This document shows, piece by piece, positions 6,801 to 57,980 of a stretch of 64,000 bases of DNA. Position numbers and translations under genes: made by a program. This DNA comes from Phycisphaerales bacterium (GTDB taxonomy: Bacteria; Planctomycetota; Phycisphaerae; Phycisphaerales; SM1A02). The stretch spans positions 1 to 64,000 of the forward strand of contig SIAM01000005.1 in assembly GCA_009691785.1 (NCBI GenBank). Direction: 5' to 3'. Positions within the stretch are counted from its first letter, which is position 1, and every line of letters starts with the position of its first letter. Under the pieces are notes generated by a model. That model did no database searches, was not told where the DNA came from, and worked only from the letters and a program-made list of their open reading frames with translations.

Positions 6801-8651
6801 TTATGTGAGCGACAAAAGCGCCAAGGCAACATCGCCAGAATCAACATCCCCACTTTGATCAAGATCCGTTATGCACCACCCCTCACAATGGCCAAAATCC
6901 AGCAGAATGAGGCTGATATCGCCCGCGTCGACCATGTTGTCGCCGTTCACATCGCCAAAGATGCTAGAGCCAACAATAATGTCAAAGTTCACCGTGATGT
7001 TGCGCGACGCCGCGCCCAGAATGTCCTCATCGCTTGTGCGTACGGTGGCAACGGCCGCGTAGGGACCAGGCGTGAGACCCACCGTGTTCAACTCAAAGCG
7101 AAGAGTGTGCGTTCCCGTGGTCAACCCCGCGCCAAGGCCGCTTGCAAGTGAAAGTCGGCTGGCCGCGGTGCCCGTGAATGAAACGCTGTCAATATCCAAC
7201 TTGGCTTGATTGCTGTCATACAAATGATTGCGCACGCCTGCGTCAATGGTGACGGAACCAAGATCGGATTGCGTATCAAGGAGCAGCGTGACGCTGTCCA
7301 AGTCCGCGGTTGGGTCCAGGCTTGGATTGCTTGAACGAACCACTTGCGTGGAAACTGGAAGCGAGATGGATGGAGTCTCCACGCCTTCATTGGAGCTGGT
7401 GACATTCACGCTGCCGGTGGCCGTTCCGACAACGGAAGTATTCAGCGTGACAAATTTACTGATTGAACTTGGCGACAAGGGCCCAGTTCCGCTGGCCGTT
7501 CCAAGGACGCTGCCTGTGCAAGCCACCGCAAACAACAGGGGTTCCACGCCAGTGCTATTGAAATACGGCGCGACATTTTGCACTTTCACTTCGATGGAAG
7601 CCAACGCGCTTTTGATCACGCGGGTTGGTGCGTTCACCAGCAACGCAGACATTTTGGCCGGCACTTGAAACTCCATGAGTTGCGCAATGTGGTCGCTGGC
7701 CATTCCCAAGTTGTCCGCCAAAATGTTGGAACGAGTGATATCTGGAGAGTAATACGTGTTATTTCCAGCGTTGATGTCTGTGTTGTAGTGGATGCCATCA
7801 TTGCCAGGCACGCGCATGGTGCTGGTCATGGCGGAAATACCGTGTCCGTCCGACGCGCCAAGACTGGGCACGATGAAATCAAATCGATCGTTCAAGCCGC
7901 CGCCAACCATGTTGTTGTAACCAACAACCAGTGGTGCTTGCGTTTGCTTCCAAGCGTTGGAAGAACCGGTCCAATTTCCATTTCCGTATGGATCTATTCC
8001 TTGACTATTGCCCGCGGCGATCAGGACCGTGTATCCAGTTTCCGCGTTGCTGTAAAAATTAAAATCACCAGTAAAAATGCAGATAGCGCCCGCGCCAAGC
8101 GCGTCGGCGTTGGCGCGTATGGCCACCATGCCAGTGCGACGCACTTCTTCATTGGTGCTGCCCGTGCTGGCTTTCAAATGCGCGCCGTATATATAAAATT
8201 TTGACAAGGCCGATGTGTAGCCCTTCAGTTGCATCTGCCAGCGATCGCAGTAACGGCTAGCGCCAGAAAAAATGTCTGCGTGACCACTGGGGATCTCGGT
8301 CAGTGTGTCCGAGCGATAAAACATTGCTTGCGCGCCAGAGGCGGAAGTTTCTCCACTGGCGGAGGTGTATGTTCCCGCCGTGTATGTCACGCCAGCGGGA
8401 GCCGACGCGTTGACCGCGGCAATAATTTTTGGCCAGGCTGTGTTGTTGACTTCGTTGAAAAGAAAAATATCAACTGGTTGCGCCCAACCCATTTTGTTAT
8501 CCGCATGCATGGCCGCAAGAACCGCGCGCATGGCCGTATCATCGCCTTGATACCCGGCGATGTTGTAATGCATAACACGAACTTGGGCGGTCGCCGAAGC
8601 AACCCAACCAAGAACGATGAATATCACCACAATTGATTGGGTCTTGAACAT
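6801..8651 (-). CDS. Secreted endonuclease/exonuclease/phosphatase-like protein with C-terminal dockerin-type repeat
   Basis: Signal peptide MFKTQSIVVIFIVLGWVASATAQ; VRVMHYNIAGYQG, IFTGDFNFYSNAETGYTVL; C-term FGDVNGDNMVDAGDISLILLDFG...DLDQSGDVDSGDVALALLSL. Confidence 0.8.
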   Translation of the reverse strand: MFKTQSIVVIFIVLGWVASATAQVRVMHYNIAGYQGDDTAMRAVLAAMHADNKMGWAQPVDIFLFNEVNNTAWPKIIAAVNASAPAGVTYTAGTYTSASGETSASGAQAMFYRSDTLTEIPSGHADIFSGASRYCDRWQMQLKGYTSALSKFYIYGAHLKASTGSTNEEVRRTGMVAIRANADALGAGAICIFTGDFNFYSNAETGYTVLIAAGNSQGIDPYGNGNWTGSSNAWKQTQAPLVVGYNNMVGGGLNDRFDFIVPSLGASDGHGISAMTSTMRVPGNDGIHYNTDINAGNNTYYSPDITRSNILADNLGMASDHIAQLMEFQVPAKMSALLVNAPTRVIKSALASIEVKVQNVAPYFNSTGVEPLLFAVACTGSVLGTASGTGPLSPSSISKFVTLNTSVVGTATGSVNVTSSNEGVETPSISLPVSTQVVRSSNPSLDPTADLDSVTLLLDTQSDLGSVTIDAGVRNHLYDSNQAKLDIDSVSFTGTAASRLSLASGLGAGLTTGTHTLRFELNTVGLTPGPYAAVATVRTSDEDILGAASRNITVNFDIIVGSSIFGDVNGDNMVDAGDISLILLDFGHCEGWCITDLDQSGDVDSGDVALALLSLT

Positions 8652-8804
8652 GATGTAAGAGTACCCCCGCAGGCGCCTGTGTCCAAGAATTTTTTGTACG
8701 AAATTGCAATTTTGCAAGTTGAAAGTCCGTATATCATCCAAATCCGCCAATTTCGGCGTTCAGATCTTGTTCAACATTCCATCGCTTTCAGTAAGGACCT
8801 TGCC

Positions 8805-10820
8805 ATGAGACAACTGCTTGTACTTGCGTCACTTCTTGTAGCCGCCGCAACCGCTTCGGCACAGCAAGTGGATGTTCAGGAATTCACTCTGCCAAACGGC
8901 ATGAAATTTCTTTTAATCCCGCGCACGGATCAGCCCAATGTCATCGCCGCTGGCTGGCTTGCAAAAGTTGGCTCGGTGAATGAGCGCCCTGGCATCACCG
9001 GCATCAGCCACTTCTTTGAGCACATTATGTTCAAGGGAACCAACACCATTGGCACGCTTGATCCACAGAAGGACGCCGAGTACCGCGCGCAACAGAAGGC
9101 GCTGCGCAATCAAATTAATCAAATGGCGTGGACCACGCAGTACACCCGCTTTTTCAAAGGCGAAATTGATGATCCGTGGAATCCCAACAACGACACGCCG
9201 GAGTTGAAGGATTTGCGCGCGCAGTTGAAGAAGTCCATGGATCAGCAACAAGGTCGCTCATCGGCCGATGCCATTTCCAAATTAAAGAAGGACTTGGCCG
9301 CGGTTCCAAAGACCGACGCTGGCAAAGCGCAAGGCGATGACATTCAAAAGCAAATCTCCAAATTGGAACTTGCTCAGGCCGCGCAATCCAGCATTGTGAA
9401 GGACGAATTTGACCAGGTCTACACCAAGGCCGGCGGCAGCGGCATGAACGCCTTCACCAGCAACGATCTCACATTTTACTTTATCAATGTGCCATCGAAT
9501 AAATTTGAATTGTGGGCGTGGATGGAAAGCGACCGCTTGATGGACAGCGTGTTCCGCGAATTTTATTCAGAGCGCGATGTGGTGCATGAAGAGCGCAGAT
9601 TGCGCACCGAAAGCACGCCAACCGGCCGCTTTCAAGAGCAGTTTGACGCCATGTTCTGGATTTCAAGCGGCTACTCATGGCCCGTGATTGGTTGGACCAG
9701 CGACTTGAACAGCTACACCATGGACGGCGCCATGGAATATTGGAACACCTACTACCGCCCCAACAATTTGGTGGGCATCATTGTTGGTGATTTCAAACCC
9801 GCCGATGTGAAGGCGAAGATTGAGCAATACTTTGGCCGACTTGAGACAGGCAAAGTGAAGCCGCCGCAAGTGGTCACGCTGGAGACCAAACAAATGGCGG
9901 AGCAACGCATGAACGCCGAGGGAGATTTCCAACCCGAAGTGAATGTGCGCTATCACACCGTGGCGCTTGGCCACAAGGACGGCTACGCGCTTGACATGAT
10001 GAGTGAGATTCTCAACGGCCGCACTGGTCGTTTGTACAAGACCATGATTGAAGGCAGCAGTGTTGCCAGTAGCGCCAGCGCAAATTACGACGGCCGTAAA
10101 TACGCCGGAGCATTTGCCTTCAGCGCGGAAACCAAAGGCGATTCAACGCCCGAGCAACTGGAGCAAGCGTGGTATGTCGAGTTGAAGAAGTTGCAGGACG
10201 AGTTGGTTCCAGAGCGTGAATTGCAAAAAGTAAAAAACGGAGTCGCGGCGGACAGCTATCGCCGCTTGCAAAATAATTTCTCGCTACTGGTGCAACTTGC
10301 GTTCGCGGAAAATACATTGGGCTGGAAGGAGCTCAACGCAATGCCAGCGAAATTGCAGGCCGTAAACGCCGCTGATATTCAGCGCGTGGCCAAGACCTAC
10401 TTTGACCCGAGCAACCGCAGCGTTGCCACATATAAGCGCAAGGCTGGCGCGGCTACGGCCGGCGATGATCCGGATTTGGCGGCATTGCCTGCGCCAATGC
10501 GCGCCCGCGCCAAGCAAATGGCGGCGCAAATGCTGCAATCCACCGATCCTGCGGAACTTCGTAAAAATCTTGATGCAATGGAAGCGCAAGGCGCGCAAGT
10601 TCCACCGCAAATGAAACCCATGTTTGATTACATGAAGAAGAAGTTGCAAGAACGAATTGCACAACTTGAGGCTGGTGGTGGCGCCGCACCTGCGGCGGCT
10701 CCTGCCGATGCCGCTTCACCTGCTGCGGCGAAACCCGCCGCCAAGGTGAAGGGTCCTGCCAAGAATGAGCCCGCGAATGCCGTTCCAAACGCAACCGCGC
10801 CAAAGGGTGGTGGTCAATGA
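8805..10820 (+). CDS. M16-family zinc metalloprotease (catalytic type)
   Basis: Signal peptide MRQLLVLASLLVAAATASAQQ; HXXEH as ISHFFEHIMFKGT; LPNGMKFLLI start typical of M16. Confidence 0.93.
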   Translation: MRQLLVLASLLVAAATASAQQVDVQEFTLPNGMKFLLIPRTDQPNVIAAGWLAKVGSVNERPGITGISHFFEHIMFKGTNTIGTLDPQKDAEYRAQQKALRNQINQMAWTTQYTRFFKGEIDDPWNPNNDTPELKDLRAQLKKSMDQQQGRSSADAISKLKKDLAAVPKTDAGKAQGDDIQKQISKLELAQAAQSSIVKDEFDQVYTKAGGSGMNAFTSNDLTFYFINVPSNKFELWAWMESDRLMDSVFREFYSERDVVHEERRLRTESTPTGRFQEQFDAMFWISSGYSWPVIGWTSDLNSYTMDGAMEYWNTYYRPNNLVGIIVGDFKPADVKAKIEQYFGRLETGKVKPPQVVTLETKQMAEQRMNAEGDFQPEVNVRYHTVALGHKDGYALDMMSEILNGRTGRLYKTMIEGSSVASSASANYDGRKYAGAFAFSAETKGDSTPEQLEQAWYVELKKLQDELVPERELQKVKNGVAADSYRRLQNNFSLLVQLAFAENTLGWKELNAMPAKLQAVNAADIQRVAKTYFDPSNRSVATYKRKAGAATAGDDPDLAALPAPMRARAKQMAAQMLQSTDPAELRKNLDAMEAQGAQVPPQMKPMFDYMKKKLQERIAQLEAGGGAAPAAAPADAASPAAAKPAAKVKGPAKNEPANAVPNATAPKGGGQ

Positions 10821-10867
10821 ATCATTTCAAACTGAACGCTTTCAATTTCATCAACGGAAACAACTCA

Positions 10868-12415
10868 ATGAAAACAACAATTGCAACACTGGTACTGGCT
10901 TCAATCGCGCTTCCACTTTTCGCGGCGCAACAAACCGCAGGCACAAGCGTGCCCAAGCGCCCTGAGGAAATTAAATATGGTCCGCTGACATTCGATGCCC
11001 CGGACGCCGCCAAGTTTCGCTTCACGCTGAAAGATGGAATCGCGGTGTACATGGCGCCTAGCAAGGAGTTTCCACTGATTACGCTCAGCATGACCTTCAA
11101 AGGCGGCAACTATCTTGAACCCAAGGACATGGTTGGCCTTGCCGGCATGACTGGCCGCATGATGCGTGAAGGCGGAACAACAACCATGAAGCCCGCGGAA
11201 TTTGACGAGGCGATTGATTTTATGGCCACGCAAATGTCCGCCAGTTGCGGCGACACCACAAGCAGTGCCAGCATGAATTGCCTGACCAGCAACTTTGACG
11301 AAAGTCTGAAGTTGTTCGTGGACATGTTGCGCAGTCCTGGATTTGACGCGGCGCGTTTGGAAACCAATCGCGGTCAAGCCCTTGAAGGAATGAAGCAACG
11401 CAATGACGACGCTGGTTCCATCATGGGCCGCGAGTGGAGCCGCCTGATGTACGGCAGCGACCACTTTGAGTCGCGGGATTCCACCGAGGCAAGTTTGAAG
11501 GCGATCACGCCAGAGAACATGCGTGCGTTTCAAGCGCGCATCTTCAATCCGGGCAATGTCATCATTGCGGTCAGCGGCGACTTTGAGCCAACGGCCATGC
11601 TTGCCAAACTGAACGCCGCATTTGATGGCTGGGCGCGCGGCGAGAAGATGGCGGACCCACCGCCTCCAACGGCCACGATTGTTCCCGGCATTTACCACGT
11701 GCAAAAAGATATTCCGCAAGGCAAGGTTCGCATTGGCATGCGCTCTATCAAGCGTGATGACCCTGATTACATTCCATACTTACTCCTCAATGACATTCTG
11801 GGTGGCGGCGGTTTCACCAGCCGCATCATGCAACAGGTGCGCAGCAACGAAGGCCTGGCGTACTCCGCTGGAAGCCGTCTTGCGGCCAAGGTGTATTACC
11901 CTGGCGTGTTCGCCGCCAGTTACGAAAGCAAGAACCCAACCGTGGCGCTTGCGGCCAAGATTGTGCTTGAAGAAATGGACAAGGTGCGCAATCAACCAGT
12001 GACGGCCGAGGAATTGGAGACATCCAAGCGCCAATTCATTGAGACGTTCCCGCGCACATTTGAAAGCAAGCCCGCCATGCTTGGCGTATTTGTTGGCGAC
12101 GAGTGGACCAATCGACCAAAGGAATATTGGAAGACCTTCCGTGACAAAGTGAACGCGGTCACGGCGGCGGACTTGCAACGCGTGGCCCAAAAATATATCA
12201 CCCCCAATGAAATGGTTCTGTTGGTGGTTGGTGATTGGAACACCGTGGGTCCTGGCGACAGCACGGGCCGCGCCAAGATGGATGATTTGCTTGGTGGCAA
12301 GGTGACGCATTTGCCACTGCGAGATCCCATGACCATGCAACCCATTGTGAAGATGGATCAAGTGACTCCAACTCCACCACCTAGTAGCGGCGAGGGTTTG
12401 GCTCCATCGCGCTGA
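10868..12415 (+). CDS. M16-family peptidase-like protein without HXXEH (non-catalytic partner type)
   Basis: Signal peptide MKTTIATLVLASIALPLFAAQQ; LAGMTGRMMREGGTTTM in place of HXXEH; C-terminal M16 domain (NDILGGGGFTSRIMQQVRSNEGLAYSAGS). A start at 10817 would give an ATGA overlap with the upstream gene. Confidence 0.9.
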   Translation: MKTTIATLVLASIALPLFAAQQTAGTSVPKRPEEIKYGPLTFDAPDAAKFRFTLKDGIAVYMAPSKEFPLITLSMTFKGGNYLEPKDMVGLAGMTGRMMREGGTTTMKPAEFDEAIDFMATQMSASCGDTTSSASMNCLTSNFDESLKLFVDMLRSPGFDAARLETNRGQALEGMKQRNDDAGSIMGREWSRLMYGSDHFESRDSTEASLKAITPENMRAFQARIFNPGNVIIAVSGDFEPTAMLAKLNAAFDGWARGEKMADPPPPTATIVPGIYHVQKDIPQGKVRIGMRSIKRDDPDYIPYLLLNDILGGGGFTSRIMQQVRSNEGLAYSAGSRLAAKVYYPGVFAASYESKNPTVALAAKIVLEEMDKVRNQPVTAEELETSKRQFIETFPRTFESKPAMLGVFVGDEWTNRPKEYWKTFRDKVNAVTAADLQRVAQKYITPNEMVLLVVGDWNTVGPGDSTGRAKMDDLLGGKVTHLPLRDPMTMQPIVKMDQVTPTPPPSSGEGLAPSR

Positions 12416-12451
12416 ACGTTTTTATTTCTGCTTGTACAAATTTCTGCTTGT

Positions 12452-12499
12452 AAAAAAGACCTCGGGTCGCACCCTCCTGCGATCCGAGGTCTCTCTTTT
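12452..12499. terminator. Bidirectional-looking intrinsic terminator
   Basis: AAAAAA-GACCTCGGGTCGCA-CCCTCC-TGCGATCCGAGGTC-TCTCTTTT: 14-bp stem with one G-U; T6 directly after the stem on the minus strand, TCTCTTTT on the plus strand. Confidence 0.85.
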
Positions 12500-12650
12500 G
12501 CCGAACGGTTCCCAACGTTCGCGAACAACCTACCTTTTCACTCTCCCGCCGTCGCGTTACTTCGAGGGCAGGCGACCTGTCCTCACTTCTCCGCAGGCTG
12601 ATTCTCAATCTCTTGCACACCTGCGCTCCTCATACGGCGCATGGGTCTAG
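12452..12650 (-). ncRNA. Candidate structured ncRNA (about 200 nt, family unknown)
   Basis: Consecutive minus-strand hairpins: CGCAGG...CCTGCG; GAGG-A-CAGG-TCG-CCTG-C-CCTC; CGAACG-TTGGGAAC-CGTTCG; then the 12452-12491 terminator with T6. No convincing ORF. Confidence 0.45.
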
Positions 12651-12669
12651 TATGTGTGTCGATAATGTT

Positions 12670-12703
12670 AAAAAAAGGGGCTGCGCCCACCGTGGACGCA
12701 GCC
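12670..12703 (-). terminator. Minus-strand intrinsic terminator
   Basis: Minus strand: GGCTGCG-TCCACGGTGGG-CGCAGCC-CC-TTTTTTT. Confidence 0.75.
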
Positions 12704-12780
12704 AGACCACTCGGTGTGTAGATGATGAATCTCCCCACGACCAGTGGACCACTCTATATACGGCGCCTGAATGGGGTCTA
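12670..12780 (-). ncRNA. Candidate second short ncRNA (about 110 nt)
   Basis: Lies between two minus-strand terminators. Its 5' part (TAGACCCCATTCAGGCGCCGTAT) resembles the 5' part of the neighbouring candidate (TAGACCCATGCGCCGTAT). Confidence 0.35.
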
Positions 12781-12784
12781 TAAG

Positions 12785-12805
12785 AAAAACGGGATTTTTT
12801 CCCCG
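12785..12805 (-). terminator. Short terminator-like hairpin downstream of murJ
   Basis: Minus strand: CGGGGAAAAAATCCCG-TTTTT. Confidence 0.5.
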
Positions 12806-12829
12806 TACTTTTGATATGTTCAGAGTCGC

Positions 12830-14452
12830 TTAGGGTCCTTTATCAATGGCTTGAATATCCTCGTCAATTTGCCCAAAAGTCCACTTCCATTCGGGCATAT
12901 TCCACCATTTGGCCAGTGCGAATATGCACACAATTCCGGCGCAAGTCAGCGCTAGAAGTTGCACAAGTGATTGTCCCCAGCCTGTCCCTACTGGAAGCAC
13001 ATGCGCGATCGCCTGCATGCCAGAGGGAAGCGCCAACGCAATGGCGGTGATGATGGCGGTCATGACCAATGTTGCGGCGAATATTTTTACGCTGGCCATG
13101 CGCGTGTGAATGTCAAACAGATTATTGACGCGGCCATGAAGCAGATACATTAAAATTGCCGCCTGAATGAATGCGCAAATGGTTGTGCTCCACGCCAAGC
13201 CTGCGGTGTTGAGCGGCGTCCAAATCAAAGTGCAATTTAAAATAAAGTTTAAGCACACCATCCAAATTGAAACGCGAGTTGGTGTGGCGGTGTCGCCCAA
13301 GGCGTAAAAAGCGCGCGTCATAGTTTGCATAATGCTAAAGACGGCGACCGCGGGCGCGAAGCCAAGCAAGATTGTGGCCACGCGGATGGTGTCGTCCGCG
13401 GAGAATTTACCGCCTTGAAAAATAACGGCGGTCAAATGCGTGCGCACCACGATCAAGCCGGCGCTTGCGGGAAGTCCAATGAACAAGGCCAGTCGAATGC
13501 CGCGGCGCAATGTGTGGGCGAACAACGCAGGATTGGAAGCCTGCCGTGAAAGCGTGGGAAAGATGGCCGTGGCAATGGCAATTCCAAACACGCCCAGTGG
13601 AAATTCATACAGGCGCGTGGCGAAATTCATGGCCGCGTTGGAGCCCTCCATCAATGGGAATTGCATTCCGAAAATGGTGGGACCAATCAAGGTGGGGTAA
13701 CTGGCAATCATGCTGTCAATGAATGTGTTGATTTGAAATACGCCCAACCCCAGCATCATGGGCAACATGGTTGTCAGCATGGTGCGTAGTGAGTCGCGGC
13801 AACCATGCCATTGCAGCGACAGGCGAATGCCGTAGCCACGCATGCTCCACATCATCCATGCCAGCTGCAACAGACCCGCGACCACCACGCTGTAGGCGAC
13901 AATTTGAATATGGAGCTCGCGCTCTAGACCACCATGCATGTACGACACGCCAATTGACGCCGCGATAATGGCCGCGTTTAAAATAATTGGGCTGGCCGCG
14001 GCCACGGCGAACTTGCCGTGCACATTTAAGATGCTGCCCATGAGCGCCACCACGCAAATCAGCGGCATGTACGGCAACATGGTCGCCATCAATTGATAAG
14101 CAAGTTGTTCCTTGGGCAAAAAGAGTGGCAACGAAACCACAACGGCCTCGCCCACAAGAGTGAGCGCGGCCAACACAACTGCAAGCAACGCCAGTGTGAC
14201 CGACGCGAAGAGCTTTGCTTTTTGCGGATTGTCTTGCTCCAATTTGGCGTACACAGGAGTGAACGACGCGCTGAGCGCGCCATCGCCAAAAAGTCTGCGA
14301 AATAAATTTGGCAATTGAAACGCGATGGCGAACGCGTCCATGATTGGACCAACGCCAAACACGCGGCTTTGCGCGGCGTCGCGGGCGAGACCAGAAAATC
14401 GGCTGACCAAAGTAAACAAGGAGACGGTTCGTGCGTGTTTTTCAAACGACAT
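12830..14452 (-). CDS. murJ: Lipid II flippase MurJ (MviN family)
   Basis: Multi-spanning 540-aa protein; RVFGVGPIMDAFAIAFQLPNLFRRLFGDGALSASFTPVY is diagnostic of MurJ/MviN. Confidence 0.95.
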   Translation of the reverse strand: MSFEKHARTVSLFTLVSRFSGLARDAAQSRVFGVGPIMDAFAIAFQLPNLFRRLFGDGALSASFTPVYAKLEQDNPQKAKLFASVTLALLAVVLAALTLVGEAVVVSLPLFLPKEQLAYQLMATMLPYMPLICVVALMGSILNVHGKFAVAAASPIILNAAIIAASIGVSYMHGGLERELHIQIVAYSVVVAGLLQLAWMMWSMRGYGIRLSLQWHGCRDSLRTMLTTMLPMMLGLGVFQINTFIDSMIASYPTLIGPTIFGMQFPLMEGSNAAMNFATRLYEFPLGVFGIAIATAIFPTLSRQASNPALFAHTLRRGIRLALFIGLPASAGLIVVRTHLTAVIFQGGKFSADDTIRVATILLGFAPAVAVFSIMQTMTRAFYALGDTATPTRVSIWMVCLNFILNCTLIWTPLNTAGLAWSTTICAFIQAAILMYLLHGRVNNLFDIHTRMASVKIFAATLVMTAIITAIALALPSGMQAIAHVLPVGTGWGQSLVQLLALTCAGIVCIFALAKWWNMPEWKWTFGQIDEDIQAIDKGP

Positions 14453-48671: not shown

Positions 48672-49394
48672 TTAATTCCAACTCAAACCCTTGGGCCACC
48701 GCGCCGTTCCCTGCGCGTCAGCCGCTGCCACAACGCCTTCAAGCCTGGCAATTTCATTGGCCACAAGTTGCGCTCGCTCCCAAGGATTTCCGCAAGCCAA
48801 CAAGTAATAGCGCGCGCGTTCATCACGCAACATGGCCGCACCAACCAACTCAATCACCGCGTGCGTTGGCATGTCGTGGCGGTCCGCCCACTCGGCCACT
48901 TTCTTCACGCTTGAAAGTCTTTGCAACAGCGGGCGATGCAGCAACTCCTGCAAAACTTTTCGCGCCGCCTTCATTTTTGGCGGCATTTGATTGGGTGGAT
49001 CGATCGGCTGCAACACGGCCGTGCGATACGCTCTGTGCTCGCTGGGCTCTTGAATCTCTTGAATGCGAGCGCGGCAGACTCCATGCAGGACAATATTGTG
49101 GCGACCATCTTTCAGTTGCTCGTGCTGCACAATTTGTCCAACGCACACAGCGGGCCGCAACTTTGGAGCCGCGCCAATAACATCCACAAACTTGTCGCCC
49201 ACAATTGCCATGGCGATTGGACCAGCGGTTAATAAATTTCCGTTGCGCACTTTTCGCAACGCGTCCTCCACCATTTGTCTATAGCGCGGCTCAAACACAT
49301 GCAAGCCTTGCACCGCGTGCGGCAACAACGAAACACACGCCAGGGGGAAAAGTGGAATGGGTCGATTGAAGTCGACCATGATTGTGTCGCTCAT
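48672..49394 (-). CDS. LON substrate-binding-domain protein
   Basis: PIPLFPLACVSLLPHAVQGLHVFEPRYRQMVEDAL; no ATPase or protease domain in 240 aa. Confidence 0.85.
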   Translation of the reverse strand: MSDTIMVDFNRPIPLFPLACVSLLPHAVQGLHVFEPRYRQMVEDALRKVRNGNLLTAGPIAMAIVGDKFVDVIGAAPKLRPAVCVGQIVQHEQLKDGRHNIVLHGVCRARIQEIQEPSEHRAYRTAVLQPIDPPNQMPPKMKAARKVLQELLHRPLLQRLSSVKKVAEWADRHDMPTHAVIELVGAAMLRDERARYYLLACGNPWERAQLVANEIARLEGVVAAADAQGTARWPKGLSWN

Positions 49395-49436: not shown

Positions 49437-52112
49437 CTATCTATAAGGAAGAAGTTCGCGCTGCTTCACTGCGGGACGCGAGCGATGCTGGCGCGAAGAA
49501 CGGAACAGCGTGAGCAATTCCTCTATATCCACATTGCCCACGGATGTTGTTCCAAGCACATCACCCGATTGCGCCGGCACGCGCCCATCGGACAACACCG
49601 TCAACGCCAAGTGCTCGCTGGGACTGTGGCTTGCGGCAAATCCCGCGGCGCACAGCGGCGCATCCATAATCGTGTCGCCCCATGGATCAATTTGCGGCGG
49701 TGAATCAACGCAAAAACCACCTGCTCGATTCTGCCACAGCGCGCCGAACGCGGCGATGCGATCAACCATGTCACGCAAGCGCTCAATATGTGGAAGCACC
49801 CACGGCCGCGCCAACCATGGCGGCGCGCCAGGCTCCACGCGGCGATGTTCAATCACGCTTTCCAGCGCCCGCTGAGCGAATGCGAATCGATCAAAACCCA
49901 TCATGCACACATACTCTTTGGCGTTGGTTGCGTGCAGATCAACGCTGATCAGATCGGCATCAATCGCCGCCAACTTTTCAAGAGCGTCAAGCGACAACAA
50001 TTCACTGCGCACGGAAAGCCCCAACGCGCCCGCCTTGCGAATCATTTTTGCAAACTCAACAACATCCGGATGCACCAGCGGATCGCCCGCTCCGCCAAGA
50101 GTCACCACCACATCGCGCGCCTCGGCCACGCGCGCAAGTATGCGGTCCATTCTTTTGGGCGTCATGGTGGGTCGCTGCAGCGTGCCAAAGCGATGTGGAC
50201 TTGCAAGCCCACAACCACGCCGACCCGTGTTCAATTCAATGGTGAGAAATTGCGGCACAAAAGTTGGCGGCGCGTTCGCGTGGCGAACGAGGGCTTCAAA
50301 TTGTGCGTGCGCGGAAATTTCCGCGCCGTGCAACAGTGGCTCAAGCGCGCGGCGCACACGTTGAATACTGCGCGGCGTGTCCATTATTAAGCGTTCGGCC
50401 ACCGCCGCCACAAAGTCTGGAATTGCAATAATTTCCGCCGCATTTCGCGTATCTGCGCGCTTCTCAATCCACTGGCCAATGCTGCGCGCGGCGCCACTTG
50501 CCAATAAGCGCACGCTTTCTATGGGCAACAAGCACGCGCCAATTCCAGGCGCTGCCAACGAGCACACAAACTGCAATTCACCCGCGCTTGAGCGCCACCG
50601 CTCTACCAAGCCGCGCACTCCCCATTGCTCCTTCACCGCAATCAACGGCCAATCCGCGCCACACACCAACACCGCGTTGGCGTGCACATGTTCGCACGCC
50701 AACACCGCGGCCTTGGCGGAAAAAACTTCATCGAACACGCATAGATTGGCAATGCCGCCGCGCGAACATGAATCACTCCACGCTCGCGCCGCGCGAATGT
50801 CCGCATGACCCGCGCCAAAAATTGGTTCAGACGCGTACACAATGTGCAAATGCGAATTTGGTTCAATGCCTTCAAGCGCCGCGCGATGATCCCAATTTTC
50901 TGGTGCCACTAAACACACATGCTCAATCTCGTCGCTTTCTAAAAGGCGATCAATGGTGCGCCGCAACACTGTCCGTCCGCCAAACTCAAGTTCAAGCGAG
51001 CGTTCAACACCCGTTCCACCACGAAGTGGATCGATCGCAAGCACCGCAACAACTCTTGGCGCGTCGCGCATCACAGTTCCTGCATACGCAACATCATGGA
51101 CTAATCCAATTCTGTTCACCCCATCACTTGCGGAAGCTTTGGACATTTTCATTTTGCCGCGCTGCCCCCACATCATTTTCGCGTTGCGCGCCGTGGCGTG
51201 GGTCGCCAAACAGTTCGCCAACGTTTCAACCGACGCGTGGCGCTTGATCACGCCGCCTTCAGTCGCGTCAATCACGCGCAGTCCACGCCCCGTGTCATAC
51301 GCAAACGCCGACTCAAGCAAAGCGCGCTCGTTGCGCAACGCGTGATTGGTCACCACGCTGCGCTCGTGATGTTCACCAACTTCCTCGCGCTCATCGCTCG
51401 GCACGAACTGCGCAACCCGATCGGTTTCATTCGTGCGCGTCTCGCGTTGCAATTGCGTGGAGTTGCCAAGTATTCGATGCGTATGCCACCAATCCCAACT
51501 TCGCACCGATGAAATTTGCGTGCTCCACTGCACATCAAGTTCGTTGCCCTTGGCGTGCGCCACTCCATCAATAAACGCCAAATCAAATCCAACCAATATC
51601 ACCGGGTCGCAACCCAAGTAGCGCAGCAACACATATCCCAACAGCGAATCCACCACGCCCGCGGGCGAAGAAATGACAACGCCACCATCCGCGGCTTCCA
51701 AGCGTGAATGAAAAATATTTTCATGGTCGCCGCGCTTGTTCATTGCGTGCGCCCCGTCGCCACCCGCCAACGCAACATCTATATCGGCGCGCACCGAATT
51801 GGCGTTGAACGAACCTAGCCACTGCCGCGTGGCCTCACTCAGTTCATGCGTGGTCGCCACCAACTGCGGGCGCAATTCCATGGCGCGCAACGAACCCGCC
51901 GCGGCGGCCGTGGCCACCATGACAAAGCGATTTAAAAAAACTCCATCCGCCAACACATGCGCGTTCTTGGACAAACTTGGTCCGGCGGAAACCAACACGC
52001 CCGCCTGCCCCGTCATGCTGCCGGCCCACGCGCCCGCAACGGAATCGCCCAACAAAGCGGCATTCACCGCTTGGCTTACTTGCATGTATCCATTCTGAAA
52101 GTCTTGCGCCAC
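49437..52112 (-). CDS. Three-part fusion: MptE/DUF115-like + nucleotidyltransferase-like + degenerate radical-SAM/SPASM-like
   Basis: 891-aa ORF. N-term GVLVSAGPSLSKN...LLRYLGCDPVILVGFDLAFIDGVAHA (DUF115/MptE-like); middle VVAVLAIDPLRGGTGVERSLELEFGGRTVLRRTIDRLLESDEIEHVCLV (GT-A/CMP-sugar transferase-like); C-term FLTIELNTGRRGCGLASP...VVVTLGGAGDPLVHPDVVEFAKMIRKAGALGLSVRSELL...LTVLSDGRVPAQSGD...VGNVDIEELLTLFRS (radical SAM/SPASM-like layout). Confidence 0.8.
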   Translation of the reverse strand: MAQDFQNGYMQVSQAVNAALLGDSVAGAWAGSMTGQAGVLVSAGPSLSKNAHVLADGVFLNRFVMVATAAAAGSLRAMELRPQLVATTHELSEATRQWLGSFNANSVRADIDVALAGGDGAHAMNKRGDHENIFHSRLEAADGGVVISSPAGVVDSLLGYVLLRYLGCDPVILVGFDLAFIDGVAHAKGNELDVQWSTQISSVRSWDWWHTHRILGNSTQLQRETRTNETDRVAQFVPSDEREEVGEHHERSVVTNHALRNERALLESAFAYDTGRGLRVIDATEGGVIKRHASVETLANCLATHATARNAKMMWGQRGKMKMSKASASDGVNRIGLVHDVAYAGTVMRDAPRVVAVLAIDPLRGGTGVERSLELEFGGRTVLRRTIDRLLESDEIEHVCLVAPENWDHRAALEGIEPNSHLHIVYASEPIFGAGHADIRAARAWSDSCSRGGIANLCVFDEVFSAKAAVLACEHVHANAVLVCGADWPLIAVKEQWGVRGLVERWRSSAGELQFVCSLAAPGIGACLLPIESVRLLASGAARSIGQWIEKRADTRNAAEIIAIPDFVAAVAERLIMDTPRSIQRVRRALEPLLHGAEISAHAQFEALVRHANAPPTFVPQFLTIELNTGRRGCGLASPHRFGTLQRPTMTPKRMDRILARVAEARDVVVTLGGAGDPLVHPDVVEFAKMIRKAGALGLSVRSELLSLDALEKLAAIDADLISVDLHATNAKEYVCMMGFDRFAFAQRALESVIEHRRVEPGAPPWLARPWVLPHIERLRDMVDRIAAFGALWQNRAGGFCVDSPPQIDPWGDTIMDAPLCAAGFAASHSPSEHLALTVLSDGRVPAQSGDVLGTTSVGNVDIEELLTLFRSSRQHRSRPAVKQRELLPYR

Positions 52113-52214
52113 AGCGACAAAGCGTAACCCTTTTCATTGCGCCCGCAAGTATGCAACCCGCTCGCACCGCGCGCAATTCCAACAACTTTTACGGCTCAAA
52201 CCATCATTTTGCCG

Positions 52215-52982
52215 ATGTTTCCATTTATGCGCAGCATCATTCGCATCTTGACTCTCAGCGTGGCGCTGGCCCTTCTTGTGGGCGGCGGTTGGCTGGCTCT
52301 GTCCATCACGCGCACCATTCAATTGCAACGCGAAGTGGCGCGCCTGGAAGTTGAGATTGAAAAACAAAAAGAACTTCGCCTGGTCATGGCGGAGCGCCTG
52401 GGAAAAACTCGCCGCCTGGCGCGCATCCATATTCAATCGCAATTTCTCACCAACGATCCAGAAAAAAAACCGCTCACCGCCAGTGACATTTCCAAACTGG
52501 ATCCAAGTTCCATTTCGACATCCGTGAACTTCATCGAGCTCAACGAGCAAGGACGCGAAATTGGCAAGCGCACCTACACCATTCCAGGCGCGACACTTTT
52601 TGTGGATGCATGGACCGTTCGCTTTCCGCAAGACAATGTTGTTGGCGGCGACCTTCTGCGCGGCCACTCGCTGGTTCTACTGCGCCGCATGTATTCCGAC
52701 TCCATGAATCCCAAAGATGGATTCCCCATTGACACGCCCGGCGGTATTCCCGATGGCTACGCCGCGGGCGACGCGCAAAAATTTGAGCAAGCCATTTGGA
52801 AACATTTTTGGTCACTCGCCACTCAACCCGACTCCGCCGTGCGCGAACATGTGCGCGTGGCGCAAGGCGAGGCCGTGTACAAGCCCGTCTCCACTGGCCA
52901 GACTTACGAATTGCAAGTGGAGAACGCGGGCGGCATCACGCTTACGCCAGTCATTGATGGCGAAATGGCGAAAGCGCCGTAG
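52215..52982 (+). CDS. Hypothetical membrane-anchored protein
   Basis: MFPFMRSIIRILTLSVALALLVGGGWLAL TM segment then coiled-coil-like QREVARLEVEIEKQKELRLVMAERLGK. Confidence 0.7.
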   Translation: MFPFMRSIIRILTLSVALALLVGGGWLALSITRTIQLQREVARLEVEIEKQKELRLVMAERLGKTRRLARIHIQSQFLTNDPEKKPLTASDISKLDPSSISTSVNFIELNEQGREIGKRTYTIPGATLFVDAWTVRFPQDNVVGGDLLRGHSLVLLRRMYSDSMNPKDGFPIDTPGGIPDGYAAGDAQKFEQAIWKHFWSLATQPDSAVREHVRVAQGEAVYKPVSTGQTYELQVENAGGITLTPVIDGEMAKAP

Positions 52983-53171: not shown

Positions 53172-54260
53172 GTGCGCGTGAACTCCAACGCCCAACAACT
53201 TATCGCCGACCTTCGCTCCGACACCGTCACGCAACCCACCGAGGCCATGTGGCACGCCATGCGCGCCGCGCCGCTTGGTGACGACGTTCTTGGCGACGAA
53301 CCCACTGTGCAAAAACTAGAGGAGCGCGTGGCGCGCATGCTTGGAAAAGAAGCCGCGGTCTTCACGCCCAGCGGCACCATGGCCAATCAACTTGCCATCA
53401 AGTCGCAATGCGAAAGCGGCGACGAAATTATCGCGCACCATGACAGCCACATTATTCATTATGAAACCGGCGCGCCCGCCGCGCTTTCCGGCTGCATGAT
53501 TCAGCCGCTGCATGGCGATGACGGAATGTTCACGCCCGCCGATGTTTCAGCCGCGCGCCGGCCCAACACCATTCACGCTCCGCGCTCGCGCATGTTGGTG
53601 GTGGAGAACACGCACAACCGTGGCGGCGGAACATTCTGGAGCGTTGACGCGTTCAAAGCTGTCAGCGCGCAAGCCCGCGCCGACGGACTGATTGTGCATG
53701 TGGACGGCGCGCGCTTGTGGAACGCATGCGTGGCTGGCAACTACCAACCGCTTGACTTCACGCAACACGCCGACACCATCAGCGTGTGTTTCTCCAAAGG
53801 ACTTGGTTGCCCCGCGGGCAGCGCGCTGTGTGGCTCCACAAAAACAATTGAACGCGCGCGTCGCTTGCGAAAAATGTTTGGCGGCGGCATGCGTCAAAGC
53901 GGCTTGCTTGCTGGCGCCGCGCTGTACGCGCTAGACAACAACATCAAACGCTTGGCGCAAGACCACACACACGCGCGCCAACTTGCCCAAGGCGTCAGCA
54001 CCATCGCGGGCTTGCGTCCGCATGCGCAACCCAACACAATTCCATCCAACATGGTGTTCATTCACATTGACCCAGCCCTAGGCACCGCCGCGCAATTTGC
54101 CCAAGCCCTAGAGCAACGCGGCGTTCGCACCTTGCCGCTTGATCCCACCCGCCTTCGCGCCGTTACGCACCTTGATGTCACCACCGCCCACATCCAGCAC
54201 GCCATTGACCAGTTTGGGCAAGTGGCCGCGCAATTACCGACTAAGCATATTGGCGTCTAA
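53172..54260 (+). CDS. ltaE: Low-specificity L-threonine aldolase
   Basis: LRSDTVTQPTEAMWHAM, GDDVLGDEPTVQKLEE, FTPSGTMANQLAI, NTHNRGGGTFW, HVDGARLWNACVA, SVCFSKGLGCPAGSALCG. GTG start, 53172 or 53178. Confidence 0.94.
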   Translation: MRVNSNAQQLIADLRSDTVTQPTEAMWHAMRAAPLGDDVLGDEPTVQKLEERVARMLGKEAAVFTPSGTMANQLAIKSQCESGDEIIAHHDSHIIHYETGAPAALSGCMIQPLHGDDGMFTPADVSAARRPNTIHAPRSRMLVVENTHNRGGGTFWSVDAFKAVSAQARADGLIVHVDGARLWNACVAGNYQPLDFTQHADTISVCFSKGLGCPAGSALCGSTKTIERARRLRKMFGGGMRQSGLLAGAALYALDNNIKRLAQDHTHARQLAQGVSTIAGLRPHAQPNTIPSNMVFIHIDPALGTAAQFAQALEQRGVRTLPLDPTRLRAVTHLDVTTAHIQHAIDQFGQVAAQLPTKHIGV

Positions 54261-54413: not shown

Positions 54414-57400
54414 ATGAAGTATGCAATCTGTTTTCCGATCGTTATTGTTATCACTCTATGTGCCCTGACTTCCAACTCGCTAGCTGACACCGTTCTGGCT
54501 TGGGGTTACAACAGCAACAGTCAATGCACCATTCCTGCTTCTGCTGCTAGCGGCGTTTCTGCTATCGCGGGCGGTGGCAACCACACCATGGCTCTGAAAG
54601 ATGGCGCCGTTCTGGCTTGGGGTTACAACTACTACGGTCAATGCCTAGGAACCGACTCCTCCGGAAATGCAATCAATTCCACAGCAGATGGTGCCTTTGT
54701 ACAAATCGGTGGCGTCACTTTATCAGGCGTTTCTGCTATCGCGGGCGGTTCCAACCACACCATCGCTCTCAAAGGTGGCGCCGTTCTGGCTTGGGGTTAC
54801 AACTACCACGATCAATGCACCATTCCTGCTGCTGCACAATCTGGCGTTACCGCTATTGCGGGCGGTGACCACCACACCATCGCTCTCCAAGATGGCAGCG
54901 TTCTGGCTTGGGGGCGCAACTACGAGGGTCAATGCACAGTTCCTGCTTCTGCTAATAGCGGCGTTTCTGCTATCGCGAGCGGTGGCAACCACACCATTGC
55001 TCTCAAAGATGGCGCCGTTCTGGCTTGGGGTGCCAACTACTACGGTCAATGCCTAGGAACCGACTCCTTCGGAAATGCAATCAATTCCACAACAGATGGT
55101 GCCTTTGTACAAATCGATGGCGTCACTTTATCAGGCGTTACTGCTATCGCGGGCGGTGAATACCACACCATGGCTCTGAAAAATGGCGCCGTTCTGGTTT
55201 GGGGTTACAACGGCGACGGTGTATGCAACATTCCTTCTGAAGCGACTAGCGGCGTTACTGCTATCGCGGGCGGTGAATACCACACCATCGCTCTCAAAGG
55301 TGGCAGCGTTCTGGCTTGGGGTTACAACTACTTCGGTCAATGCGACATTCCTGCTTCTGCCAATAGCGGCATTACCGCCATCGGTGCTGGTGCAAACCAC
55401 ACTTTGGCCGTTGGGGTTGCAATCATTGATCCCTGCGACGTCGATGGCAATGGAACACCCAACGCTAACGAACCTGGACCATCCACAGCTCAGTGGCTCT
55501 ATCCAAGTCCAACAATCACCAGCACATTTGAAAATTCAACCAACTGGAGCGCTGGTATTCCTGGCTATAACACGGACGCCACAATTACTGGCAATCCACA
55601 AATCACATTTGATTGCGACAACGCAGTGAAGACCTTGGAGCTCAGCACGAACTCCAGCGAGCAAATTCCAGGCCTATCGCTCAATTTAGATGACCACAGC
55701 CTCACGGTGCACCGCGGTCAAATGCAATTCTATCCAGGCCCGGGTTTGTACGCGTTGCCCAAATGTCCAAGTTGTATGCCGTACAGCGTCAACATCAATG
55801 ACGGATTTATTTATACCGCCCCGACCGGCGACTTTCCCCTGCGCTTTGAATCCGATCACGCCACATGGAATATCAACGGCACACAACTTTATTCAAACTC
55901 AACAGAACTTGCCACCATTGGATCAAGTCAAATCGATGTCAAGCTGAATAATTCAATCCTAAACACAGCAGCCATCTCCAAAGGTGACGCAACTGGTGGC
56001 TCACGTCACATTGAACTGCTTAATAGTTCCATTAGTGACTTCCAGGGTGGTCTCACTTTTGGGGACGGCATTTCGTTATCACTTGGCAGCATTATGGCTG
56101 GCGATAACGACTATGCGCAAAACTCGATCACCGCGTATGGCGGCGCCGTGTTCCAATCTGGTTCATGGCTTGATGCGTGGGGCAATCTCACCTTCAATGG
56201 CTCTGTTGCTTTCGGCGGCCAACTTGATCTGCACACTTTCGCCAACCCATACCACGGCCGCTCCAAAATAACTGTGCAAGGAGAATCATTTAATTATGGC
56301 GCCGGCACCAGCAGTAGCGCCTTCGCTTTTATGAATATGTTTGGCAACAATTTCAACGATTCAACATGCTCTACATCATGCGACGACCCTGGGCTTATCA
56401 TGCTGCAACTCGATGGACTCGCCAGCATTGGTGGTCCGCTCTTTATCAGTAGCACAGATGGATCCATTCCCGCGGAAGGCAACATCTATACGTTGATCTC
56501 TTTGAATCCACAATACAACGGCTCATTCGATCCCAACAACCACAAGTTCTCTGCCGTTCGTTGGCTTGGCCAAAACGGTGAAGGCTTGCAAAACGGCTTG
56601 ATCTTCGAGCAAATTCTTTCGTCGAACAAACTGCAAGTGCAATGCGTGCGCGTGCCAATCGTGGAGCCCGCACCAGCCAACACCACAGATCTCGCCGTCG
56701 TTCCATTTGCTTCATCCAGCGCCGACTTCAACGATGATGGAAGCGACGATATGGTGAACCTGATTGTTGGCGACAACAATTCCGTGCAAATCATGAAGGA
56801 CATGGGCGACGGAACCTTCGCGCTACTGAGCACTTTTGAGCTGCCTCAAAACGAAACACCAAATGCCATTGCTGCCGGCAATGTGACTGGTGACTCCAAT
56901 CCTGAAATCGCCATCACGTCAATTTCCGATGACGTGGGCTTTGTCACGCTGTATGACGCAAATGGCGACGAGCTTTGGAGACTTCAGATTGCGGAGGGCG
57001 AACTTCCAACCTGCGTGTGCGTGCTGCCGCCAAGACCTCAGTTCCCCTTATCAGGCAAGGTCGCTTTTGGCACAAAAATTACAGGAAGCGGCCTCAATTT
57101 TTCGCTACCCAAAACTGGAAATTTAAATACAGTTTCGGGTTCCCCTGGGTCCCAAACTACAACTACACCACTTATCGGCGTTCCCCGCACGGTTCACAGC
57201 AGCGACATTGATCATGATGATCTAAGCGATGTCACCGCAGCTGGCAGCACCAGTGCAGAAAGTTTTACTCACGAACCCAGCCCCCCCGGCTTCATTACGG
57301 TTGTAAAAATAACGCAGACGGCGGACGTACCACAACCGGATCAATTCCTCGACTTTGTTCCTATAGCTCTCGTAACTGCCGATATTGATGACGACGGGGT

Positions 57401-57980
57401 GCAAGATATTTTCGCCTCGTGCAATTCCATTCCATCCAATATTCCCGGTTCAACACGTCCTGTTGCATGCTTCTTGAAAGGCTCTATCTCTCCCACAAGC
57501 CCCGTGTTCACTATGTCGCAACCAATAGGAATTTCCGTTGGCCGACCCGTGCAAGGCAAAGCCATCACGCTTATCAAGCGCAATGGTGGATTCAGTTTGG
57601 CCGTGGCTTCAACTGATGACGTGAATGATTCCGTCGATGTGATTGAACTCACATTCGCTCCGTCCGGCGGTCTTTCTATTGGCAATCAAACACAAATCTC
57701 AACTAGCGGCAGCGTGATTGGCTTGCGCACGTTGGAGGACCAAGGAACGCAAAAGTTTGTAACCGTGCGCAAACTGACCGAGTTCACGCCACATGCGGTG
57801 ATCGAATCCACCGGCTATGTTGAACTCGTGTACGGCGACTTCGATGGCAGCGGATTCATCGACAGCGGTGATATTGCATACATGCTGCTTTGGTACAGCG
57901 ATGCTGGCATAACCGACCTTAACGGCTCGGGTTCGACCGATTCCGGCGATCTGGCACTTCTGCTGTTGCTCATGTCTTAA
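54414..57980 (+). CDS. Secreted RCC1-repeat protein with FG-GAP-like segment and C-terminal dockerin-type repeat
   Basis: Signal peptide, RCC1-like units (SGVSAIAGGGNHTMALKDGAVLAWGYNYYGQC), later SSADFNDDGSDDMVNLIVGDNN, C-term YGDFDGSGFIDSGDIAYMLLWYSDAGITDLNGSGSTDSGDLALLLLLMS. Confidence 0.85.
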   Translation: MKYAICFPIVIVITLCALTSNSLADTVLAWGYNSNSQCTIPASAASGVSAIAGGGNHTMALKDGAVLAWGYNYYGQCLGTDSSGNAINSTADGAFVQIGGVTLSGVSAIAGGSNHTIALKGGAVLAWGYNYHDQCTIPAAAQSGVTAIAGGDHHTIALQDGSVLAWGRNYEGQCTVPASANSGVSAIASGGNHTIALKDGAVLAWGANYYGQCLGTDSFGNAINSTTDGAFVQIDGVTLSGVTAIAGGEYHTMALKNGAVLVWGYNGDGVCNIPSEATSGVTAIAGGEYHTIALKGGSVLAWGYNYFGQCDIPASANSGITAIGAGANHTLAVGVAIIDPCDVDGNGTPNANEPGPSTAQWLYPSPTITSTFENSTNWSAGIPGYNTDATITGNPQITFDCDNAVKTLELSTNSSEQIPGLSLNLDDHSLTVHRGQMQFYPGPGLYALPKCPSCMPYSVNINDGFIYTAPTGDFPLRFESDHATWNINGTQLYSNSTELATIGSSQIDVKLNNSILNTAAISKGDATGGSRHIELLNSSISDFQGGLTFGDGISLSLGSIMAGDNDYAQNSITAYGGAVFQSGSWLDAWGNLTFNGSVAFGGQLDLHTFANPYHGRSKITVQGESFNYGAGTSSSAFAFMNMFGNNFNDSTCSTSCDDPGLIMLQLDGLASIGGPLFISSTDGSIPAEGNIYTLISLNPQYNGSFDPNNHKFSAVRWLGQNGEGLQNGLIFEQILSSNKLQVQCVRVPIVEPAPANTTDLAVVPFASSSADFNDDGSDDMVNLIVGDNNSVQIMKDMGDGTFALLSTFELPQNETPNAIAAGNVTGDSNPEIAITSISDDVGFVTLYDANGDELWRLQIAEGELPTCVCVLPPRPQFPLSGKVAFGTKITGSGLNFSLPKTGNLNTVSGSPGSQTTTTPLIGVPRTVHSSDIDHDDLSDVTAAGSTSAESFTHEPSPPGFITVVKITQTADVPQPDQFLDFVPIALVTADIDDDGVQDIFASCNSIPSNIPGSTRPVACFLKGSISPTSPVFTMSQPIGISVGRPVQGKAITLIKRNGGFSLAVASTDDVNDSVDVIELTFAPSGGLSIGNQTQISTSGSVIGLRTLEDQGTQKFVTVRKLTEFTPHAVIESTGYVELVYGDFDGSGFIDSGDIAYMLLWYSDAGITDLNGSGSTDSGDLALLLLLMS
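54499..55410. repeat. In-frame RCC1-encoding DNA repeats with a 408-bp higher-order duplication
   Basis: GTTCTGGCTTGGGGTTACAACTAC...GGCGTTTCTGCTATCGCGGGCGGT recurs; the longer segment with GCCTAGGAACCGACTCC occurs at 54643 and 55051 (408 bp apart) with few substitutions. Confidence 0.9.

Follow-up and report, generated by a model that had tools for sequence, protein, structure and literature searches.

Among the described systems closest to the protein considered here are the Maf flagellin glycosyltransferases (PF20157 plus PF01973), represented by M. magneticum Maf (5mu5). Others are the spiro-SPASM proteins (TIGR04321), radical SAM/SPASM enzymes such as SuiB, DesII, BlsE and EpeE, the cytidylyltransferases NeuA, KdsB and IspD, and the non-flagellated bacterium Lysobacter enzymogenes OH11, in which flagellar export components have been kept and repurposed (PMC7277350). 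How does the locus under study compare? The window, a stretch of 64,000 nucleotides from a Phycisphaerales genome (contig SIAM01000005.1), encodes an 891-aa protein that shares with Maf the MptE-like core and its GPSL motif. Full-length relatives of this protein also share the Maf N-terminal domain, the C-terminal region, adjoining neuABC genes and flagellin, but the family differs from Maf by fusion to a nucleotidyltransferase-like (NTase) domain and a cysteine-less radical-SAM-like module. The window copy, in contrast to Maf, is without the outer Maf domains, most of the invariant positions, neuABC and flagellin. Throughout, NR denotes the gene, or the half of a gene, that encodes the NTase plus cysteine-less radical-SAM/SPASM-like part.

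Sequence and predicted structure of the fusion protein

The gene starts with GTG, a valine codon found at the matching position in four congeners from the window's subclade, and is free of internal stops. The initial annotation had read it as one unbroken open reading frame with three segments, and the ORF check, Pfam, an AlphaFold2 (AF2) model and Foldseek all bear this out (Table 1). Among Pfam profiles, the MptE-like PF01973 scores above its cut-off (aa 37-182; 38.1 bits against 34.6), Radical_SAM (aa 648-736) and NTP_transf_3 (aa 375-492) fall under theirs, Maf_flag10_N is not matched, and CTP_transf_3 (PF02348) is absent from the matches up to E 10. The AF2 model, built on 53 sequences, has a mean pLDDT of 86.5 and a pTM of 0.86 and comprises three domains, with low confidence at residues 117-135, 321-348 and the C-terminus. 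Both the MptE/Maf-like domain and the radical-SAM barrel, the two folds for which a structural check had been proposed, are modelled confidently. Foldseek against the PDB matched radical-SAM enzymes (DesII, BlsE, SuiB) and cytidylyltransferases; 6oew was found at TMt 0.69-0.71 with most of the target covered, and KdsB and IspD were matched as well. The middle domain has the fold of NeuA, KdsB and IspD, but it differs from them in having no PF02348 match and in carrying a different invariant motif, WRGG...DE in split proteins and SRGG...DE in the window. A PDB sequence search with the single 891-aa protein returned noise only, and one with the NR profile gave weak matches to BlsE.

Table 1. Coordinates of the fusion gene, its parts and its neighbours in the window
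Feature	Position	Strand	Remarks
LON substrate-binding-domain gene, syntenic flank	48672..49394	-	PF02190; flanks operon in L042, L043, L044
Maf(reduced)-NTase-like-radical-SAM-like fusion gene, 891 aa	49437..52112	-	intact ORF; homologues in 15/16 genus genomes
SPASM-like tail without cluster cysteines, aa 800-880	49473..49715	-	alignment
Radical-SAM-like barrel, aa 618-800	49713..50261	-	Pfam/NCBIfam sub-threshold, AF2, Foldseek
Kept GGE-like SAM-site motif GGAGDPLVHPD, aa 673-683	50064..50096	-	alignment
Site of missing CX3CX2C, ELNTGRRGCGLASPHR region, aa 627-641	50190..50234	-	alignment across relatives
Nucleotidyltransferase/cytidylyltransferase-like domain, aa 352-560	50433..51059	-	sub-threshold NTP_transf_3; 6oew, IspD, CMP-Kdo synthetase folds
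Disordered linker, aa 321-348, Maf/NTase boundary	51069..51152	-	pLDDT < 50
Reduced Maf/MptE-like domain, aa 1-310	51183..52112	-	without Maf N-terminal domain and C-terminal helical part
Pfam PF01973 match within reduced Maf domain	51567-52004	-	
Divergent gene beside fusion	52137..52982	+	no Pfam match; similar-sized gene in same place in G007
Threonine aldolase-like gene, other syntenic flank	53172..54260	+	

What is left of the radical-SAM module? The barrel fold and the GGE-like motif are those of radical SAM/SPASM enzymes, but the family is without CX3CX2C and its fused forms are without the SPASM cluster ligands. At the radical-SAM site CX3CX2C is absent in the window, in all aligned relatives and in the class-wide homologues (two pattern matches in homologues fall elsewhere in the sequence), and the region had rightly been called cysteine-depleted. 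The likeness to spiro-SPASM proteins holds in part: the radical-SAM half matches the NCBIfam model TIGR04321 (aa 584-754, E 2e-12), and split relatives align with most of that model at scores as high as 131 bits, but the window protein scores 46.5 bits, below the cut-off of 250, and is without the cluster cysteines. The GGE-like motif, in the form GGxGDPLxHP, is kept in most homologues, and the SPASM-like tail holds about four cysteines in most split homologues, the fused forms being without them. As CX3CX2C is absent class-wide, the loss of radical-SAM chemistry appears to be old and to belong to the family rather than to the window copy in particular. A literature search on cluster-less radical-SAM proteins found nothing useful. 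In the split NR proteins at L032-L040 and L151-L188, which are without the radical-SAM cysteines, the four or so tail cysteines might bind an auxiliary Fe-S cluster. In a further set of fused proteins (L046, L047, L101, L111 and L116) the radical-SAM-like region is diverged or shrunken and the GGE-like motif is lost too.

The Maf-NR family and its reduced member

Homologues were found in 52 of the 61 genomes searched, that is, in 51 of 60 relatives and in the window's own genome. In the same taxonomic family and part of the order they are one protein of ~1200-1290 aa, arranged from N- to C-terminus as a Maf_flag10_N-like domain, MptE core, NTase region and radical-SAM/SPASM region; in other families two neighbouring genes, of ~650 and ~550 aa, carry the same parts. 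In relatives, full-length and split alike, Maf_flag10_N scores vary from weak to over the threshold, and a profile of the Maf part retrieves the Maf crystal structure 5mu5 as its top match, with MptE next. The MptE/DUF115-like assignment of the N-terminal region survives for the PF01973 core, but the pterin link does not: the core is that of a Maf glycosyltransferase. A pterin-kinase (MptE) identity was rejected: the gene is fused, and its full-length relatives, which have a Maf N-terminal domain, are Maf proteins. Of the 298 genomes covered by a class-wide search, 203 have an NR homologue at E <= 0.001, although the weakest matches may be ordinary radical-SAM proteins. A scan of named genomes, made with the Maf alignment because the NR alignment offered no conserved stretch, yielded 80 loci with titles nearly all from Planctomycetota or Phycisphaerae and none from a spirochete. 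Nearly all named Phycisphaerae loci with enough flank display the gene order maf-NR-neuA-neuB-neuC, whether fused or split; at some loci of this operon no adjoining neuB was detected. Together, neuA, neuB and neuC are the gene set expected for a CMP-nonulosonate (sialic-acid pathway). The architecture, which the initial annotation suspected to be functionally undescribed, is common in Phycisphaerae, yet our literature search found no description of spiro-SPASM or of a Maf-NTase-radical-SAM fusion; as far as our searches show, the Maf-NR family is previously undescribed, but made of known kinds.

Outside the window's genus, flagellin is present in 37/37 gene-bearing relatives and in 1/8 gene-lacking ones (45 in total; Fisher p 1.8e-7, uncorrected for relatedness, which confounds the profiles). 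In later genome panels G149 is an exception, having the gene without flagellin. Our data strongly support a part for the family in nonulosonate glycosylation of flagella. In the window's genus, by contrast, flagellin is found in none of the 16 genomes and the rod/hook C-terminal domain likewise in none, 97-98% complete assemblies among them, while NeuB is absent genome-wide in 14/16 (G005 and G014 have it, at other loci). It follows from these absences that the window copy cannot glycosylate flagellin at present. The initial annotation had suggested a surface or flagellar glycan factor, a description that suits the family and its operon but not the window copy. The accompanying proposal, to look for flagellin or nonulosonate genes in the genomes carrying the protein, was answered in the same divided way, with flagellin and adjoining neuABC in gene-bearing relatives but, in the genus, no flagellin and NeuB in just two genomes.

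In the tree, the genus forms one clade (support 100) inside the fused forms, beside G269 and G287, which are full-length and have flagellin; the branch uniting the genus with these two has a support of 92, and the tree is unrooted and does not itself give the order of fusion and fission. The 52 true split rows make up one starred clade; two seemingly split rows inside the fused clade were not counted among them, L020 being a contig fragment and L021 two overlapping ORFs. Relative to the full-length form, ~280 N-terminal residues and ~127 residues between Maf and NTase are gone from the window protein; by BLAST coordinates, it is at the linker site that full-length relatives carry the latter stretch, which is Maf C-terminal sequence. 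Of 83 Maf-invariant positions, 33-34 survive in the window copy; full-length relatives lying outside the alignment that defined the invariants have 70-74, and shuffles 13-27. The HFVTALDYH motif is lost, but GPSL and the segment LGCDPVILVGFDLAFIDG are still present. NR invariants are kept at 21-22 of 28 positions, as against 8-17 in shuffles. Two tree sisters, G030 with flagellin and G149 without it, both have a degenerate Maf core and no neuABC by the gene, so that, judging from two lineages, Maf decay seems to follow the disappearance of the donor genes, not that of flagellin. We rejected a paralogue or a decaying pseudogene, as the window's genome has a single MptE-like copy, intact and with low dN/dS.

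The surrounding genes had been thought not to explain the fusion, a view that does not hold: LON and threonine aldolase genes flank the window gene just as they flank the full operon in relatives (both in L042 and L043, LON in L044 too). In the window neuABC are missing and the flanks are otherwise syntenic. From this gene order, the locus is the former flagellar-glycan locus, from which neuABC have been deleted. Elsewhere in the window, positions 54414-57980 (+) encode a secreted-looking protein of 1188 aa in which RCC1-like repeats and, at the C-terminus, a dockerin-like pair of repeats were read by eye.

Selection and the export gate of the genus

We calculated dN/dS by the Nei-Gojobori method between the window and close genus members, more distant pairs being saturated at synonymous sites. 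Whole-gene values are 0.16-0.22 in the better-resolved within-genus pairs; by part, the NTase has 0.08-0.11, the radical-SAM region 0.10-0.15 and Maf 0.21-0.32, and the neighbouring LON gene has 0.07-0.12. Given the low dN/dS, with the NTase and radical-SAM parts near the LON level, the gene is predicted to be functional, chiefly through its NR half.

The genus keeps one cluster encoding FliO, FliP, FliQ, FliR, a truncated FlhB, FlhA and a FliA-like sigma factor, which is seen at L132 (G000:C63) 7585-14396 and also at L133 and L136. FlhB is 232-251 aa long in the genus and matches just the N-terminal part of the profile, the C-terminal domain being missing, and FliF gave no match over the cut-off. 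Lysobacter enzymogenes OH11 (PMC7277350) likewise has export components without a flagellum, but no Maf/NR fusion is described there, and the gate here is smaller, with its FlhB truncated. The export-gate cluster and the fusion gene sit on different contigs. Flagellin-less genomes without FlhA are also without the fusion gene, weak matches aside, and G013 has the fusion gene with FlhA undetected (95% complete, 9% contamination). Since three flagellin-less members of the taxonomic family (G018, G019 and G033) have a high-scoring FlhA and no fusion gene, co-occurrence is only suggestive of a tie between the gene and the gate.

A model for the fusion gene and its alternatives

Based on these observations, we propose that the window gene comes, by vertical inheritance and with reduction, from a Maf plus NR fusion for the nonulosonate glycosylation of flagellin. 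NR would be a non-radical module that serves as a binding protein, an adaptor or a transferase, and the stripped gate would supply the substrate for which it is kept; as a whole, this account seems to us fairly probable. Descent from a flagellar Maf-NR fusion is well supported, and the present role is what we infer. In the ancestor, a Maf glycosyltransferase joined to NR would have served flagellin nonulosonate glycosylation. Because the cluster ligands are absent, NR would be a binding, adaptor or transferase module and not a radical enzyme, and in flagellated relatives it would work with Maf on export-bound flagellin. In the window's genus the flagellum and neuABC have been lost and the Maf half has decayed, with the NR half still under purifying selection. 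The genus may retain the protein for a substrate of the FliOPQR-FlhB'-FlhA gate, on which it would act as an adaptor or by transfer of a different CMP- or NDP-activated sugar. We tentatively speculate, as a bolder idea that we would not favour as it stands, that the genus turned a glycosylation-and-export module flagellum-free: a stripped type III gate (FliOPQR, FlhA, the FliA-like sigma factor and an FlhB that has no C-terminal domain), whose substrates are bound or modified by Maf-NR through its radical-SAM and cytidylyltransferase folds, with no radical chemistry.

The protein might instead be an active glycosyltransferase with a new donor, its reduced Maf core and/or NTase moving a CMP-ulosonate such as CMP-Kdo onto a non-flagellin exported protein. 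A CTP_transf_3 (KdsB/NeuA family) gene is found in 16/16 genus genomes, the GPSL motif and the segment that persists with it are retained, and a C. botulinum Maf has been reported to use CMP-Kdo besides CMP-Neu5Ac (PMC11339370); but around 60% of the Maf-invariant positions are gone, HFVTALDYH among them, and both outer Maf domains are lost, and we consider such a transferase unlikely. Could the protein be a living flagellin-glycosylation factor whose flagella escaped detection, through a divergent flagellin or incomplete genomes? That the genomes are drafts, and that FlhA, FliO-P-Q-R, the truncated FlhB and the FliA-like sigma factor are present, would fit, but the lack of flagellin and rod/hook domains extends to the most complete assemblies, FlhB is without its C-terminal domain and most of the genomes lack NeuB, all of which makes live flagella improbable.

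With the flagellum and the sugar genes gone and the Maf half degenerate, the gene could also be seen as a functionless, decaying relic of flagellar loss; however, its ORF has been kept in 15/16 genomes, with dS up to saturation, and dN/dS is ~0.1 in the NTase and radical-SAM parts, as in the LON gene, and a relic strikes us as quite improbable. The retained barrel fold and GGE-like motif would be in keeping with a radical SAM enzyme that uses non-canonical cluster ligands, but at the site CX3CX2C is missing from every aligned homologue across the class, nor do these homologues share a set of alternative ligands there, and we give this very little credence.

What might our model mean beyond this locus? 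The NR protein would be a class-wide partner of Maf, its neighbour or fusion throughout Phycisphaerae, built on a radical-SAM fold minus the cluster motif. A cluster-less radical-SAM partner of Maf is surprising, as is its retention after flagellum loss. Constraint on NR outlasts the flagellum as well as the sugar genes, which points to a separable NR function. The genus represents a natural experiment in what a lineage retains once it has given up the flagellum. A second lineage, comprising G149 (L160/L194) and G030 (L041), has lost neuABC at the locus as well.
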